DNA of 64,000 nucleotides from Acinetobacter brisouioides (GTDB lineage Bacteria > Pseudomonadota > Gammaproteobacteria > Pseudomonadales > Moraxellaceae), in assembly GCF_004331075.1 (NCBI RefSeq), contig NZ_SJNX01000002.1:124001-188000 (forward strand). Direction: 5' to 3'. Below, piece by piece: positions 41,880-49,808 of this stretch (position 1 is its first letter; each line of letters starts with the position of its first letter). The notes under the pieces are model-generated. The model made no database searches and had not been told where the DNA came from. It saw only the letters and a program-made list of their open reading frames with translations. The translations under genes and the position numbers were made by a program.

Positions 41880-43325
41880 TTAACTGACTTGTATAAACTC
41901 TTCATCGGGTACAACCACAATTTCCGAGACTAAGTTTTCAAACTTAAAGATTTCATCTAACTGTTCTTGAGTCAATAAGCCACGTTCAAGCACCACTTCG
42001 GGAATCGTCTTGTTTTCAGCAATGCATTGTTTGCCAATTTCATCGCACAAACTATGCCCCAAAATCGGATCAAGCAAGGTCACAATTCCGACGCTACGCA
42101 TGACCGAATCACGACAAATTTGTTCATTGGCTCGAATACCCTGAATACATTTTTCATCCAGTGTGCGTACTGCTTGGGTTAACAGTGAAATTGATTCCTG
42201 AATAGAATAGGCAATCACAGGTTCCATAGCATTGAGCTGTAACTGCCCTGCTTCTGCGGCAAAGGTAATGGTTAAATCATTCCCAATCACTTTAAAAGCA
42301 ATCTGATTGACTACCTCAGGAATTACGGGGTTAATTTTGGCAGGCATAATCGATGAGCCCGCCTGCATCTCTGGAAGCTGAATTTCAGCAAAGCCAGCGC
42401 GTGGCCCAGAACTCAGTAACCGCAGGTCATTACAAATTTTGCTGAGCTTAACCGCCAAGCGTTTCAGTGTGCTCGACAACAAAATAAAGACACCACAATC
42501 ACTGGTCGCCTCGACATAATCCTCACTGGTTTTGACGCTTAGACCTGTAACCTGTTGCAAATATCGAGTAACCCGTTTGGCATGCCCCGATGCGGTATTA
42601 ATCCCTGTACCAATCGCAGTTGCGCCCAAATTAATTTCCAGCAACAATTCACGCGTGGTCTTAATCAGTCGTACATCTTCTTTTAATAACGTCGCAAATG
42701 CATGAAACTCTTGCCCCAAAGTCATCGGCACTGCGTCTTGCAATTGGGTACGCCCCATTTTCAAGACCGTTTTAAACTCGAGTGCTTTATTTTCCAAAGA
42801 AGCGATCAAGTGCTGCATCTGCTCAAAAAGCGGATCGAGCATACTATAAGTTGCCAAGCGTAGTGCGGTCGGATAAACGTCATTGGTCGACTGCGATTTA
42901 TTGACATGATCATTGGGATTCAAAATATCGTATTGACCTTTACGATACCCCAGCATTTCCAGTGCAATATTGGCAATCACTTCATTCATGTTCATATTGA
43001 TTGAAGTGCCAGCCCCACCCTGATACACATCCAACGGAAACTCTTTATGCCAGTGTTCTGGGTTTTGAATGATCAGGTCACATGCACCTTGTATCGCATG
43101 ACTGATTTGCTCGCTGATTTTTCCCACTTCTAAATTGGCTTGAGCCGAGGCTTTTTTCACCTGTGCCAACGCACATAAAAAATAAGGCTGCTGCCCGATA
43201 TTCAATGATGAAATCTTGAAATTTTCCAGTGCGCGCATGGTATGAATACCATAGTAACAATGAGTAGGTACTTCTTTGATTCCTAATAAATCTTTTTCTA
43301 ATCGATTGGCTTGAACGCGATCCAT
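41880..43325 (-). CDS. aspA: Aspartate ammonia-lyase
   Basis: 481 residues of the fumarase/aspartase superfamily, with the SS-loop GSSIMPAKINPV, GTGINTASG, and the start EKDLLGIKEVPTHCYYGIHTMRALENF. It deaminates aspartate to fumarate reversibly. The KINP signature and length favour aspartase over fumarase C. It is oriented away from putP across about 580 bases, so it links aspartate and proline use only by position. Confidence 0.94.
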   Translation of the reverse strand: MDRVQANRLEKDLLGIKEVPTHCYYGIHTMRALENFKISSLNIGQQPYFLCALAQVKKASAQANLEVGKISEQISHAIQGACDLIIQNPEHWHKEFPLDVYQGGAGTSINMNMNEVIANIALEMLGYRKGQYDILNPNDHVNKSQSTNDVYPTALRLATYSMLDPLFEQMQHLIASLENKALEFKTVLKMGRTQLQDAVPMTLGQEFHAFATLLKEDVRLIKTTRELLLEINLGATAIGTGINTASGHAKRVTRYLQQVTGLSVKTSEDYVEATSDCGVFILLSSTLKRLAVKLSKICNDLRLLSSGPRAGFAEIQLPEMQAGSSIMPAKINPVIPEVVNQIAFKVIGNDLTITFAAEAGQLQLNAMEPVIAYSIQESISLLTQAVRTLDEKCIQGIRANEQICRDSVMRSVGIVTLLDPILGHSLCDEIGKQCIAENKTIPEVVLERGLLTQEQLDEIFKFENLVSEIVVVPDEEFIQVS

Positions 43326-43906
43326 GTTAAACCCTTAAACAAAATAATGCACTTCAACTGTGCAAAATCCAGCTTAATCAAAATTGTTAAATATCGCGTT
43401 AGCCAAACTGCTATTTCTTGGTATTTTTTATCTCAGGAATGTCACTTTTAGCCAATGAATCACAATACAATCTTATTTTCTAATCAGATAAGTCATCAGG
43501 CAAGATCATGGAAAAACCTGATAATTATCAAAATTTAATCAATTTATATTCAATTAGTCATAAAATATTTGGGCTTTATGCTTTTCACTTTGTACCAATA
43601 AGTCAAATTCATCTAAACTACGGCATCTTGCTTTGAACTCGATTACACCGTAATCCGAAGAGTTGATGTTTATGACTGTACACTTGCATCATAGAACACT
43701 CCCCAACTCGCGATATCAATAGCAAATGTAACCGCTTTTTATTCATTTTGATGAATCTTTAGTCTCTACTGTTTCATCATTATTTTTAAATTTCCCTCTA
43801 AAAAGCCTCCGATTACAGTGAATTATTCGGTAATTATTTTGTCATTACAGAATTCATTCACATGTTGGTTCACAACACTAGAACCGTTTTTTAGACAGGA
43901 TGATCT
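43326..43906. other. Divergent region aspA / putP
   Basis: About 580 bases without a clear gene. The last part has the put repeat element (43811-43851). A 42-codon plus-strand frame (43508-43636) preceded by a poor ribosome site has no recognisable similarity and is left out. Both promoters lie here. Confidence 0.6.
43811..43851 (+). promoter_or_regulatory. put repeat element, copy upstream of putP
   Basis: 41 bases of which 36 match the element at 45960-46000; the central 20 (TTATTCGGTAATTATTTTGT at 43823-43842) are identical. It contains ATTAC-N13-GTAAT and GTAAT-N9-ATTAC spaced half-sites. It ends about 55 bases before putP. A binding site for the Lrp-type regulator is the natural guess. 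Confidence 0.65.
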
Positions 43907-45400
43907 ATGAACTACACGAATCCGACCGTTATTACTTTTGTTTTATATATTGTCGCTATGGTTTGTATTGGCTTGTATGCTTACCGTGCGACACGCGACT
44001 TTTCTGACTATATTCTTGGAGGTCGTAGTTTAGGCAGTTTTGTGACTGCCTTATCTGCAGGTGCATCCGATATGAGTGGCTGGCTACTCATGGGATTGCC
44101 TGGCGCAATTTATGCAACAGGTCTATCTGAAGCATGGATTGCCATTGGTTTAACCCTTGGCGCTTGGCTCAACTGGCAGTTTGTCGCAGGCCGCTTACGG
44201 GTACATACTGAAATCCAAAATAATGCATTGACATTACCTGATTATTTCACCAACCGCTTCAATGATACAAAACGTGTACTGCGTATTGTCTCTGCGCTCA
44301 CCATTTTGATCTTTTTCTCTATTTACTGTGCTTCAGGCATGGTGGCTGGTGCGCGTTTATTTGAAACGATTTTTCATATGGACTACAGCACTGCGCTTTG
44401 GGTGAGTGCGCTTGCAACGATTAGCTACGTATGTATTGGTGGTTTCTTGGCGATTAGCTGGACGGACACATTCCAAGCAACGATGATGCTATTTGCATTA
44501 TTTTTGACGCCTGTATTTACCTATCTGGCGATTGGTGATGGTCAAGTACAATTCTCCCATCTCATTGAAACTGCTCGTCCACATGCTTACGACATGTTTT
44601 CCAATTTGTCTAAAATTGCCATTATTTCATCAATGGCATGGGGCTTAGGCTATTTTGGACAACCTCATATTTTAGTCCGCTTCATGGCTGCGGACTCAGT
44701 GAAATCAATCCCTGCTGCGCGCCGTATTGGCATGTCATGGATGATTTTATGCCTTTCTGGGGCAGTCGGTGCTGGCTTCTTTGGAATTGCATTTTTCCAA
44801 GCCCATCCTGATTTGTCAGGCAAAGTGAGTAGCAACTCTGAACTGGTATTTATGCAATTGACCCAAATTCTGTTTAACCCTTGGGTTGCTGGGATTGTCA
44901 TGGCGGGGATTTTATCTGCGGTCATGAGTACGTTGAGTTGTCAGCTTTTGGTCTGTTCAACCACACTCACCGAAGACTTTTATAAAGCATTTATTCGTAA
45001 AAATGCTTCACAAAAAGAACTGGTTTGGGTTGGTCGTTTAATGGTACTTGCCATCGCCGTCTTTGCGATTGTGTTAGCAAGCAACCCTGACAGTAAAGTT
45101 TTAGGCTTAGTTGCTTACGCTTGGGCTGGTTTCGGAGCTGCATTCGGCCCATTAATTATTTTGTCGTTGCTGTGGAAACGCATGACTTTAAGTGGTGCTG
45201 TTGCAGGGATGGTGGTCGGCGCTGTGACTGTAATTCTCTGGAAAAACGTATTTGCCTCAACAGGCTTGTATGAAATTGTTCCAGGCTTTATTTTAGCAAT
45301 GCTCACCATTATTGTGGTCAGTTTAATCAGTAAACCACCGACACGCGACATGCTTGAACGCTTTGAACAAGCTGACGAGATTTATCATCGCGAACATTAA
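43907..45400 (+). CDS. putP: Sodium/proline symporter
   Basis: 497 residues, about 13 membrane helices, SSS family: FSDYILGGRSLGSFVTALSAGASDMSGWLLMGLPGAIYATG is a strong PutP start, and GYFGQPHILVRFMAADS, IVMAGILSAVMSTLSCQLLV follow. It imports proline with sodium across the inner membrane. It has the put repeat upstream and a terminator downstream. Regulator and catabolic gene putA are next. Confidence 0.95.
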   Translation: MNYTNPTVITFVLYIVAMVCIGLYAYRATRDFSDYILGGRSLGSFVTALSAGASDMSGWLLMGLPGAIYATGLSEAWIAIGLTLGAWLNWQFVAGRLRVHTEIQNNALTLPDYFTNRFNDTKRVLRIVSALTILIFFSIYCASGMVAGARLFETIFHMDYSTALWVSALATISYVCIGGFLAISWTDTFQATMMLFALFLTPVFTYLAIGDGQVQFSHLIETARPHAYDMFSNLSKIAIISSMAWGLGYFGQPHILVRFMAADSVKSIPAARRIGMSWMILCLSGAVGAGFFGIAFFQAHPDLSGKVSSNSELVFMQLTQILFNPWVAGIVMAGILSAVMSTLSCQLLVCSTTLTEDFYKAFIRKNASQKELVWVGRLMVLAIAVFAIVLASNPDSKVLGLVAYAWAGFGAAFGPLIILSLLWKRMTLSGAVAGMVVGAVTVILWKNVFASTGLYEIVPGFILAMLTIIVVSLISKPPTRDMLERFEQADEIYHREH

Positions 45401-45420
45401 TTGATTTGTTTCAGTCCATC

Positions 45421-45449
45421 AAAAAGGCATGCTCAATCATGCCTTTTTT
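45421..45449. terminator. Bidirectional terminator, putP / Lrp-type regulator
   Basis: Stem AAAAAGGCATG / CATGCCTTTTT with loop CTCAAT, between convergent genes. Confidence 0.85.
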
Positions 45450-45933
45450 ATTTCTTGCTTTGTAATTTAATTTGTGTGGTTTCCTTCACCACCTGCATGA
45501 CAGGATAACTACGGGTTTCCTTCACACCTGGCAAATGCCAAAGTACCTGCCCCGCTATACGGCGAAATTCGTCCATGTTTTGACTGCGGATTTTCACGAC
45601 AAAATCAAAGCCGCCACTGGTCATGTGACATTCTAGAATTTCAGGATACTGCTGCACCGCATCAATAAAATCTTCCAGCACATGCGGGGTAGTTTTATCC
45701 AATAAAATTTCAACAAACACCAAAAAGCCTGCATGTAATTTCTCAGGGTTGAGATGCGCGTAATAACCCGAAATAAAATTTTCTTTATTGAGTTTCTGTA
45801 CGCGTGCCATCACTGCAGTTGGCGACAGGTTGACGGCTTCTGCCAATTTAATATTGGAAATTCGCCCATCTTTTTGCAACAAATCCAGAATTTTGAGGTC
45901 TGTACGGTCAAGGCTAAAAAAAGCATCAGACAT
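45448..45933 (-). CDS. Lrp/AsnC family regulator, probable PutR
   Basis: 161 residues: an N-terminal helix-turn-helix (LDRTDLKILDLLQKDGRISNIKLAEAVNLSPTAVMARVQKL) and a C-terminal RAM ligand domain (about 65-150). In groups where PutA lacks a DNA-binding domain, an Lrp-type PutR next to putA senses proline and activates the put genes. It is divergent from putA; the shared region carries the put repeat. Confidence 0.88.
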   Translation of the reverse strand: MSDAFFSLDRTDLKILDLLQKDGRISNIKLAEAVNLSPTAVMARVQKLNKENFISGYYAHLNPEKLHAGFLVFVEILLDKTTPHVLEDFIDAVQQYPEILECHMTSGGFDFVVKIRSQNMDEFRRIAGQVLWHLPGVKETRSYPVMQVVKETTQIKLQSKK

Positions 45934-45959
45934 ATGAATTTTTCTCTAAAAATAACCAA

Positions 45960-46000
45960 AATTATAGTGAGTTATTCGGTAATTATTTTGTAATTATAGA
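45960..46000. promoter_or_regulatory. put repeat element, copy between the Lrp-type regulator and putA
   Basis: Second copy of the 41-base element, sharing 36 bases with the putP copy, in the same orientation relative to putA as to putP. It lies 46 bases before putA and 26 bases before the regulator start, so it could serve activation of putA and autoregulation. Confidence 0.65.
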
Positions 46001-46046
46001 TTTAATCCACCCCTAGTTCAATTTTTTTAGCAACAGGACATGCGCC

Positions 46047-49000
46047 ATGATGGAAACTGAAAAGGTCTCTGCAACTCAATCGACCACTGTTACCGATATT
46101 ACTGTTTTCGATGAAAAAAATAATTTCGAAGACAAAATCAATCAAGCATGGCGCCGCCCTGAGCCTGAAGCGGTTCAACAACTTTTACAATTCGCCAAAC
46201 TCCCAAGCGAACTAGACAAGAAAATTTATGAACTAGCATTTCGTTTGTCGAGTGGGTTACGTGAGCGCAAAGCTTCTGCGGGTAAGGCAGGCATTGTGCA
46301 GGGTTTATTGCAAGAGTTTTCATTGTCTTCTCACGAAGGCGTGGCATTGATGTGTCTGGCAGAAGCACTGCTTCGTATTCCAGATACAGCAACCCGTGAT
46401 TTGCTGATTCGTGACAAGATTAATCAGGGCAACTGGAAAGAACATGTGGGGCAAAGCAGCCTGATGTTTGTCAATGCTGCGGCATGGGGTCTGATGTTGA
46501 CTGGCAAAATCATGCAGCCACAAAGTGGAATGAGTTTATCTGGTGTTTTAACAGGTATTTTGGCACGCAGTGGTCGCGGCATTATTCGTAAAGCAGTTGA
46601 TGTGGCGATGCGGATGATGGGCGAACAGTTTGTGACAGGTGAAACCATTGAAGCGGCGCTGAATCATGCCAAAACTTTAGAAGCTAAAGGCTTCCGCTAT
46701 TCATACGACATGCTCGGTGAAGCAGCATTTACTGAGCGTGATGCTGACCGTTACATGCAGGATTATGTCTCTGCAATTCATGCCATTGGTAAAGCAACCG
46801 CAGATAAAGACGTGTACACAGGCGCAGGGATTTCCATCAAACTGTCTGCCATTCACCCACGCTACCAACGTGCGCAACATGATCGCGTTCATACAGAATT
46901 GTATAGCCGCGTTTTAGAATTGGCTCGCTTAGCCAAACAATACAATATCGGCTTAAATATTGATGCTGAAGAAACTGACCGCCTTGAACTGTCTTTAGAA
47001 TTGCTTGAGCGTTTATGCTTTGAACCCGATTTGGCAGATTGGAAAGGTATTGGCTTTGTGATTCAGGCCTACCAGAAACGCTGCTTCTTCGTAGTGGACT
47101 ACATTATTGATTTGGCAAAACGCAGCAAAAAACGCCTGATGATTCGTCTGGTAAAAGGTGCGTATTGGGACAGTGAAATCAAAAAAGCCCAAATTGATGG
47201 TATGAGCGACTACCCTGTCTACACCCGTAAAGTACATACCGATTTGTCTTATATTGCCTGTGCGAAAAAATTACTGGCTGAGCCTGATTTTATTTATCCG
47301 CAATTTGCCAGCCACAACGCGCAAACACTCGCAACCATTTACAACCTTGCCGATCTTGAAAAATATTATGCAGGTCAGTACGAATTCCAATGTCTGCACG
47401 GCATGGGCGAACCACTATATGAAAATGTTGTCGGTTCTAAAGCGGAAGGAAAACTGGGTGTGCCATGTCGTATTTATGCGCCTGTGGGTACGCATGAAAC
47501 CCTGCTCGCATATTTGGTGCGTCGCTTACTGGAAAATGGTGCGAATACCTCATTCGTCAACCGTATTGCGGATCAAAATCTAAAAATTGATGACCTGATT
47601 CAATCTCCAATTGAAGAAATCGAACAAGATGCCAAACAGGATAAAATCGTTGGCTTAAAACACCCGTCTATTCCATTTCCAAAGAATTTGTATAGTTTAG
47701 ACCGCGTCAATTCGAAAGGTTTTGACCTTGCCAATGACAGTTGTCTAGAAGAATTAAATGCAGTTGCCAAACAATTCGCTCAGCATCAATGGCGCAGTCA
47801 AGCACTGGTTGCAGGGCAACTGCTTGAAACTCAGGGCAACAATCAAGCCGTGATTAACCCTGCTAATCACCGAGATGTGGTCGGTCATGTCAATGAAGCA
47901 ACCGTTGCACAAGTTGAACAGGCGTTACAACAAGCTCAAGCACAACATAGTACATGGCAAAACACACCTGTGGTCTTACGCGCGCAAGCGTTAGAACGCG
48001 CTGCCGACCTGATGGAAGAACGCCTGCTTGAACTGTTGGTCTTACTGTGCCGTGAAAGTGGTAAAACCTATGCCAACGCAATTGCAGAGGTGCGTGAAGC
48101 AGTTGATTTCTTGCGCTATTACGCTAAACAAGCACAGCATTTTCCAAATCAAAAAGCCTTGCAAAGTTTGGGAACCATCTTGTGTATTAGCCCATGGAAC
48201 TTCCCATTGGCGATTTTCACAGGTCAAATTGCCGCAGCGTTAGTCACAGGCAACTGCGTGATTGCCAAACCTGCTGAACAAACCCCGTTGGTTGCCTTTC
48301 AAGCGGTGAAAATGTTGCATGAAGCTGGCATTCCTCAAGCGGTTTTACAGTTCATGCCAGGTCAAGGTGAAACCATCGGCGCGAAACTCAGCCAAGATGC
48401 GCGTATCAACGGCATTATGTTCACAGGTTCGACTGAAGTTGCGAAAATCCTGCAAAAAACTGTGGCTCAGCGTTTGACTCAATATGGTCAACCTGTAACT
48501 TTGATTGCTGAAACTGGCGGTCAAAATGCCATGATTGTGGACTCATCGGCATTGACTGAACAGGTGGTGTTCGATGCCGTCAGTTCGGCATTTGATAGCG
48601 CAGGTCAACGTTGTTCAGCACTGCGTATTTTGTGTGTGCAAGAAGACAACGCAAAAACCGTGTTGACCATGCTTAAAGGTGCGATGCAGCAACTTCGCGT
48701 AGGCAATCCATATCTGCTCAAAACCGATATTGGTCCAGTGATTGACAGCGAAGCTCAGCAAAATATTCAGCGTCATATCAGCAAAATGCAAGGCAAAGGC
48801 TACCCTGTGCATCAATTGATGTTTGACCAAACAGCGACTCAAGCCCAACTTAGACAAGGCACATTTGTACCACCAACCCTGATTGAGTTACCGAACCTGA
48901 ATGATTTGGAACGCGAAGTTTTTGGTCCTGTTCTACACGTGGTGACTTATAAATACGGCGAACTCGATGCCTTGATACAGCACATCAATGCCAAAGGATA

Positions 49001-49808
49001 TGGTTTGACTATGGGTTTACATACCCGTATTGATGAGACCATTCAGAAAGTAGTTGATTCTGCACACGTCGGTAACCTGTACATTAACCGCAACATTGTT
49101 GGTGCAGTGGTCGGTGTGCAACCGTTTGGTGGCGAAGGCTTATCAGGTACAGGACCAAAAGCAGGCGGCCCATTGTATTTGTATCGCCTCATGCAAAACC
49201 ATGCGTCAGCAGGCTTAACCACGCCATTTGCCGTAAAAACTACTTTGATTGATCAAAATGCAGTAGCAACTCAAAACTACCTAGCATTTAAAGCATGGGC
49301 TACAAAAAATATCAGTGGCATCAACACCAATGCTGTTCCTAGCTTCGTGGTTGATAAACTCTATGAACTGCAAGGCCCGACAGGCGAAAGCAACCAGTAC
49401 GTGATTTTGCCACGTGAACGCGTGTTGTCACTTGCGAGCACAGAACAGGAGCAAGTTTATCAACTGCTTGCCATTTTCGCAGTGAACTCAAAAGTGCTGT
49501 TAAAACGTGATAATGCCTTCTTTACCAAATATGCACAGTCATTGCCAAAATCAATTTTGGATACCATCAAACTCACCGATGACATTGCCAAAGCTGACTA
49601 CGATGCGGTGTTACATCATGGTTCAAGCCAAGAACTTGAAGCCCTGCAAAAAGTCATAGCAAGCCGTACTGGGGCAATTGTGGGTATTACCCATATGGCG
49701 AGCAACAGCGCTGATATTCCACTAGAACGTCTGGTGATTGAACGTGCGATTAGCATTAACACCGCAGCCGCGGGCGGTAACGCCAGCCTCATGACCATGA
49801 CTGACTAA
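46047..49808 (+). CDS. putA: Bifunctional proline dehydrogenase / P5C dehydrogenase PutA
   Basis: 1253 residues. The proline dehydrogenase barrel (about 80-560) has the AGISIKLSAIHPRY, RLVKGAYWDSEIK and FVSHNAQTL-like FASHNAQTLATI motifs. The aldehyde dehydrogenase part has AETGGQNAMIVDSSAL, catalytic cysteine in SAGQRCSALRI and NRNIVGAVVGVQPFGGEGLSGTGPKAGGP. A C-terminal extension follows. There is no N-terminal ribbon-helix-helix DNA-binding domain: the start (TEKVSATQSTT...) is unstructured, so it is not an autorepressor like E. coli PutA. It oxidises proline to glutamate at the inner membrane. Confidence 0.97.
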   Translation: MMETEKVSATQSTTVTDITVFDEKNNFEDKINQAWRRPEPEAVQQLLQFAKLPSELDKKIYELAFRLSSGLRERKASAGKAGIVQGLLQEFSLSSHEGVALMCLAEALLRIPDTATRDLLIRDKINQGNWKEHVGQSSLMFVNAAAWGLMLTGKIMQPQSGMSLSGVLTGILARSGRGIIRKAVDVAMRMMGEQFVTGETIEAALNHAKTLEAKGFRYSYDMLGEAAFTERDADRYMQDYVSAIHAIGKATADKDVYTGAGISIKLSAIHPRYQRAQHDRVHTELYSRVLELARLAKQYNIGLNIDAEETDRLELSLELLERLCFEPDLADWKGIGFVIQAYQKRCFFVVDYIIDLAKRSKKRLMIRLVKGAYWDSEIKKAQIDGMSDYPVYTRKVHTDLSYIACAKKLLAEPDFIYPQFASHNAQTLATIYNLADLEKYYAGQYEFQCLHGMGEPLYENVVGSKAEGKLGVPCRIYAPVGTHETLLAYLVRRLLENGANTSFVNRIADQNLKIDDLIQSPIEEIEQDAKQDKIVGLKHPSIPFPKNLYSLDRVNSKGFDLANDSCLEELNAVAKQFAQHQWRSQALVAGQLLETQGNNQAVINPANHRDVVGHVNEATVAQVEQALQQAQAQHSTWQNTPVVLRAQALERAADLMEERLLELLVLLCRESGKTYANAIAEVREAVDFLRYYAKQAQHFPNQKALQSLGTILCISPWNFPLAIFTGQIAAALVTGNCVIAKPAEQTPLVAFQAVKMLHEAGIPQAVLQFMPGQGETIGAKLSQDARINGIMFTGSTEVAKILQKTVAQRLTQYGQPVTLIAETGGQNAMIVDSSALTEQVVFDAVSSAFDSAGQRCSALRILCVQEDNAKTVLTMLKGAMQQLRVGNPYLLKTDIGPVIDSEAQQNIQRHISKMQGKGYPVHQLMFDQTATQAQLRQGTFVPPTLIELPNLNDLEREVFGPVLHVVTYKYGELDALIQHINAKGYGLTMGLHTRIDETIQKVVDSAHVGNLYINRNIVGAVVGVQPFGGEGLSGTGPKAGGPLYLYRLMQNHASAGLTTPFAVKTTLIDQNAVATQNYLAFKAWATKNISGINTNAVPSFVVDKLYELQGPTGESNQYVILPRERVLSLASTEQEQVYQLLAIFAVNSKVLLKRDNAFFTKYAQSLPKSILDTIKLTDDIAKADYDAVLHHGSSQELEALQKVIASRTGAIVGITHMASNSADIPLERLVIERAISINTAAAGGNASLMTMTD

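Follow-up and report, generated by a model that had tools for sequence, protein, structure and literature searches.

Duplication of the PutR-type control region between the divergent lrp and putA genes, in one lineage of Acinetobacter, probably put the sodium/proline symporter gene putP under the regulator of putA. Both copies of the region lie in the window (the whole 64,000-nucleotide stretch of Acinetobacter brisouioides DNA analysed here), where the genes and parts concerned are as follows.

41880-43325, minus strand: aspA, divergent from putP.
43789-43811, plus strand: left part of the putP copy, apparently from the lrp leader (the alignment has gaps in the window and none in G015 or G140).
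43812-43861, plus strand: putP copy of the element, best ungapped 50-mer (43/50 to 45961-46010).
43823-43842, plus strand: 20-mer in the putP copy, identical to the putA-copy 20-mer.
43884-43906, plus strand: putP leader with the ribosome-binding region, directly before the start codon (identical across the five clade species, 23/23).
43907-45400, plus strand: putP, sodium/proline symporter (TIGR02121, 718.5 bits against a cut-off of 515.5).
45448-45933, minus strand: Lrp/AsnC-type regulator gene (lrp), proposed PutR (PF01037, PF13412 and PF13404 over cut-off).
45934-46046: lrp-putA intergenic control region, apparent source of the copy, kept genus-wide.
45961-46010, plus strand: putA copy of the element (matched by the R1 model in 145/175 genomes).
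45972-45991, plus strand: 20-mer in the putA copy, identical to the putP-copy 20-mer.
45993-46021, minus strand: predicted lrp promoter, with -35 TTGAAC (46021-46016), 17 nt and -10 TATAAT (45998-45993).
46047-49808, plus strand: putA, proline dehydrogenase / glutamate-semialdehyde dehydrogenase (profile matches).

A sequence-only reading of this DNA had described a 41-base element before both genes, and the alignment reproduces it. Identities number 36/41 between 43811-43851 (or 43812-43852) and a stretch 2149 bases downstream, with an identical 20-base core, TTATTCGGTAATTATTTTGT, at 43823-43842 and 45972-45991, at similar distances from the start codons (64 bases to putP at 43907, 55 to putA at 46047). 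The second copy adjoins the Lrp-type gene, as had also been said. The best ungapped local alignment covers the two 50-mers (43/50), and the local score of the pair is 32.5, against a mean of 8.6 and a maximum of 12.5 in 30 shuffles. The proposed ATTAC/GTAAT half-sites can be seen in both copies in the window; as the genus-wide alignment does not keep the central GTAAT, they are not what defines the element. The remark that the element is longer than a simple operator holds in that the likeness continues leftward across the lrp leader. Its length does not imply a single long operator, however, since some of what the two copies share is probably the promoter and leader of lrp. Overall, the earlier interpretation of the element is partly supported: a regulatory element common to both genes and tied to the Lrp-type gene has good support, and the duplication in a single lineage had not been foreseen.

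The element is confined to few places in its own genome (2.85 Mb searched, 15 contigs). The 20-mer occurs there in two places at 0 mismatches and in one more at 3, with one match for its reversed control pattern. R1, a sequence-only model of the conserved lrp-putA block, gave two significant matches when 150 of 2535 first-look candidates were scored, the putP copy reaching 23.8 bits (E=1.8e-4); the third match (E=0.16) falls inside an open frame that by eye resembles a restriction-enzyme subunit. The wide spread through unrelated places that would have spoken against a regulatory element was not found, and we rejected a dispersed mobile repeat or movable promoter family, as there are two significant places and not many before unrelated genes. 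A search for further copies, for example before aspA or other amino-acid genes, had been suggested; among the same 150 of 2535 candidates there is no separate one, and the putP copy itself sits in the spacer common to the divergent aspA and putP. An exact 20-mer in a Chloroflexi contig (L035), inspected with 200 bases around it, was taken as a chance match.

Across the genus, the putA copy belongs to a conserved intergenic block. In a first draw of 60 genomes, own included, the Lrp-type gene was found in 52 (E<=1e-50); putA is divergent from it in all 51 fetched loci of relatives, and putP is present in 47 of these. An alignment of 39 of the 40 distinct intergenic sequences (L087, the most divergent, being excluded) gave the consensus TATAGTGAGTTATTCGG-N6-TTCTGTAATnATAAATTA, and the shared element, which the sequence-only reading had tied to the Lrp-type gene, is this lrp-putA intergenic element of the genus. 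The predicted lrp -10 falls within its right half. A consensus scan scored the lrp promoter 10/12 and is weak alone, yielding 3 promoter-like sites against 6.1 expected in shuffles; by eye, the genus majority consensus at that position is TTGAGT-17-TATGAT. Part of the genus-wide conservation may be due to the lrp promoter and not to an operator.

Presence and absence of the element largely follow the Lrp-type gene. Among 175 genomes, R1 matched at E<=0.01 in 145, the Lrp-type gene was found at E<=1e-45 in 146 and putA at E<=1e-100 in 148; element and lrp-type gene occur together in 143, both are missing from 27, the element is alone in 2 and the gene alone in 3 (G109, G127 and G032). The two genomes with the element alone are G138, where the match is weak (E=0.0015) and putA is missing, and G033, where fragments of the lrp-type gene and of putP lie beside putA (L149) and the element is retained but altered. 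G125 and G050 have putA and lack the element; there is no lrp, putP or aspA in the 10 kb around putA, and neither an lrp-type gene nor the element genome-wide. G127, an exception to the divergent layout from outside the 51-locus set, has the lrp-type gene and lacks both putA and the element. These patterns tie the element to the lrp-putA pair, though co-occurrence of element and gene is partly mere adjacency.

Three observations on individual genomes belong here. In G127 (L152), by eye, the lrp-type gene stands between tRNA methyltransferase-like and transcription-repair helicase-like genes. G163 is a draft genome of 80% completeness with two putP-lrp-putA loci of different lineages (L147, L148), perhaps a mixed assembly. 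The Lrp-type gene at G040:C1:62201-62674 has one in-frame TGA within the matched frame.

The putP copy has a much narrower distribution. Comparison of the 140 bases upstream of putP in 48 genomes found the element only in the window and in G055; the other 46 upstream regions scored 6 to 11, where the best shuffles reached 9.5 to 13. One of the 46, L061, exceeded its own maximum (11.0 against 10.0) through an A-rich 16-mer and was taken as chance. G015, whose putP is on another contig, carries the copy too. The 175-genome R1 scan, whose strict filters may miss decayed copies, found two matches at E<=0.01 in 11 genomes. The second match lies just before putP in five (G000, G055, G015, G140 and G117), about 300 bases before putP in G035, at another lrp-putA locus in G163, and away from put genes in G054, G079, G126 and G159. 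Three of these last four are weak (E 0.004 to 0.009) and expected by chance across 175 genomes; the one in G079 (L138:1501-1533; 24.0 bits, E=2.6e-4) is as high as the window putP copy. By R1, the putP copies of the window, G055 and G117 score 19.3-24.6 bits against 47.3-47.6 for their own putA copies. With such low scores and an equal match in G079, the case rests on alignment to the own putA region and not on the model score. In a quick putA tree, made from 56 rows and without bootstrap, the five copy-bearing species group as a single clade (SH-aLRT 100).

By eye, a 3-hydroxyacyl-CoA dehydrogenase-like gene with an enoyl-CoA hydratase-like neighbour begins about 50 bases after the G079 match, in the same direction; the match is either chance or an additional regulator target in that species.

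A diverged form of the element was suspected in the putP regions of other species (for example AACAGTAAGTAATTTTG in L065, L066, L069 and L070) and remained unsupported. A matrix scan over 300 bases placed the best left-half match at that sequence with z of 0.5 to 1.3, and full-length matrix scores outside the clade were all negative, with z up to 3.8 (L065, at a different place). Searched with the model at E<=10, 54 loci gave nothing outside lrp-putA but the clade putP copies, the G035 match and one 9-bit match (L084). Many species (L058-L086) have in common an upstream block of their own, roughly TTACAGAnnGTAATTTT and then TTGAATC, about 90-130 bases before putP by eye; it is not detectably the same element.

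The extent of the likeness points to a copied segment. In G015 the putP and putA copies agree at 65/74 positions without a gap, and in G140 at 68/81, the latter match starting at the lrp start codon and continuing through leader and core. Ungapped agreement reaching into the lrp leader, which has no evident use before putP, argues for copying and against a converged operator. In the window, the left part of the putP copy, AATTTCCCTCTAAAAA, matches AATTTTTCTCTAAAAA, which adjoins the lrp start. The copies also resemble the clade's own putA regions most closely: that of G015 agrees with them at 64-65/74, against at best 59/74 (median 53/74) in 49 other species, and that of G140 at 66-69/81, against at best 56/81, though these comparisons are ungapped, so spacing changes lower the scores of the other species. 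The lrp -10 is intact in the putP copies of G015 and G140 and decayed (TATAAT to TGTAAT) in those of the window, G055 and G117.

We take the copied segment to be a bidirectional control region whose ends lie near the lrp start codon and near the lrp -35. Its right-hand boundary before putP lies somewhere between 43862 and 43883, and the leader at 43884-43906 is probably native to putP; by eye, ACAGGATGACCTGCCTATG-like leaders precede putP in some other species, such as L077. On the left, the window flank that extends beyond the lrp start outscored all 1000 shuffles, but the match needs long gaps and shorter flanks did less well (74 and 8 of 1000 shuffles equally high), so we do not claim remains of lrp codons.

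Once in place, the putP copy looks to have been kept by selection. Between the window and G015 or G140, the putP 50-mer is held at 43/50 (86%) in both comparisons and the last 23 bases before the putP start at 23/23 (100%); the 20-mer is held at 19/20 (95%) in each of the four other clade members. Adjacent spacer has fallen to 46-71% (46% and 53% identical to G015 and G140, respectively, at 43451-43600; 63% and 53% at 43601-43720; 71% and 50% at 43721-43788), from which the 50-mer looks selected, although it is not better conserved than the first 20 putP codons (85%). The aspA-side stretch, 43326-43450, is 76% identical in G140 and 17% in G015, the latter because only a 44-residue aspA piece matched beside the G015 putP. 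The window, G055 and G117 have changes in common in their putP copies that are missing from their putA copies; the likeness is thus not due to recent conversion by the putA copy.

Selection could have acted on something other than an operator. The copy might have been kept mainly as a putP promoter, an RNA polymerase site that gives both genes the same basal promoter, which we consider unlikely. This would suit a segment that probably includes a promoter (for lrp), ends 45 bases before the putP start and is better kept than its surroundings. Against it, a consensus scan for sigma-70-like promoters, which does not cover other promoter types, found none on the plus strand of the element; the opposite-strand lrp -10 has decayed in three of the five species, and the core is still 19/20.

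We prefer to read the segment as the control region of a regulated pathway. The stretch at 45961-46010 would serve the divergent lrp-type gene and putA in common and would hold the binding sites of a regulator, the upstream control site of putA and probably the lrp promoter; the product of the lrp-type gene would be a PutR-like, proline-sensing regulator of the Lrp family. In the ancestor of the five-species clade, the region was duplicated to just upstream of putP, and its copy would have been retained by selection, so that the regulator would govern proline uptake (putP) and breakdown (putA) jointly from separate transcription units. Joint switching-on of the two genes is probably the purpose of the copy. 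The sequences themselves show the homology, the duplication, the clade that carries it, the lack of the copy in most of the other species and a conservation of the copy above that of its surroundings. We infer that the Lrp protein binds, that proline is its effector and that it activates putA and putP, and does not repress them, because known PutR systems do so.

The Lrp-type protein has an N-terminal helix-turn-helix (HTH; PF13412, PF13404) and a C-terminal ligand domain (PF01037); among solved structures it is closest to E. coli Lrp (2gqq, E=1e-43), and it falls under the NCBIfam Lrp cut-off (180 against 233 bits). The ribbon-helix-helix domain is the self-regulating part of PutA proteins. 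It has no Pfam match in this PutA, which matches the trifunctional PutA profile only from position 94 of 1318; from family knowledge, such a protein is not expected to regulate itself. Lack of the domain would be expected, though it is no strict requirement, of a PutA under a PutR-type regulator.

The AsnC ligand domain has seven matches in the own genome, and any of the seven proteins could be the binder. The element might thus be the site of one of the other six, or of a nitrogen or carbon regulator, with the proximity of the lrp-type gene accidental; we give this reading a low probability, somewhat below that of a kept promoter. Besides the number of AsnC-family proteins, it could draw on the equal-scoring G079 match, between fatty-acid or phenylacetate-type genes, and on the E. 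coli Lrp consensus YAGHAWATTWTDCTR (as worded in PMC5554404), which gives the Lrp-type protein no support: the match of 13/15 at putP was reached or passed by 166/2000 shuffles and that of 12/15 at putA by 973/2000, and we dropped it, as both lie within the shuffle range. Against an accidental proximity, the element is absent along with the lrp-type gene in G125 and G050 despite putA and is absent in G127, where the lrp-type gene stands without putA; moreover, a divergent Lrp-type PutR governs putA in other groups (PMC6168545). Convergence or chance likeness of two AT-rich operators, for which the base composition and the common pathway of the two genes might speak, we reject as highly improbable, given ungapped identities of 43/50 to 68/81 that extend into the lrp leader, putP copies nearer to the clade's own putA regions than to those of other species, and a score of 32.5 against a shuffle maximum of 12.5.

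Control of putA by a Lrp-type PutR is known. In Caulobacter, a divergent Lrp-type PutR is a proline-dependent activator of putA, and the paper on it also cites a Lrp-type PutR divergent from putA in Agrobacterium and Brucella (PMC6168545). These Alphaproteobacteria resemble the present case in having a Lrp/AsnC gene adjacent to and divergent from putA; what differs is the additional copy of the control region before putP, here a separate unit, and putP is not named in the main text of the Caulobacter paper (PMC6168545). In Vibrio, a Lrp-family PutR is cited as an activator (PMC3223726), and in Vibrio vulnificus such an activator of proline use covers putA and putP as it would here; there the genes form one operon, putAP, whereas here they are two separate units, each with its own copy of the control region (PMC3223726). 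A literature search, with most subscription journals outside its reach, found no publication on how put genes are regulated in Acinetobacter. Regulatory switching and promoter propagation are known ways for genes to gain control regions. Regulons also expand by gain of transcription-factor sites (PMC5343134). In both, as here, a gene enters a regulon by acquiring a control region; the present case differs in that the copy can be traced to a source about 2 kb away and brings remains of the regulator gene's leader. What is new is that a further gene of the pathway has received a copy of the control region, and that this may have happened more than once.

The possible second instance comes from G035. 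Some 300 bases before its putP is a decayed copy of the lrp-putA region that scores 118, against a maximum of 89 in 200 shuffles; it begins at the lrp start and extends as far as the putA start codon, perhaps beyond. In the putA tree, G035 stands apart from the five-species clade across branches with support of 99, on a long row whose placement is flagged as unsure. The relic is either an independent duplication or the remnant of an older one lost elsewhere, and the first seems simpler. That the region was copied before putP at least twice independently in the genus, in the five-species clade and in G035, has perhaps slightly less than an even chance of being right. If true, copying of a neighbour's whole bidirectional control region would be a recurrent way of bringing a separate transporter gene into a regulon, in place of evolving a new site.

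With relatives that lack the copy, sister species that have it and a relic in a second lineage, the locus offers a traceable case of regulon growth through a copied control region, a neat rather than radical example of bacterial gene-control rewiring. It also predicts specifically where the proline regulator of Acinetobacter would bind.

The aspA-putP spacer also holds a palindrome, GATTACACCGTAATC, at 43641-43655, which is kept as GATTACAnnGTAAT in the five clade species while the surrounding spacer has diverged; some other regulator of aspA or putP may bind there.
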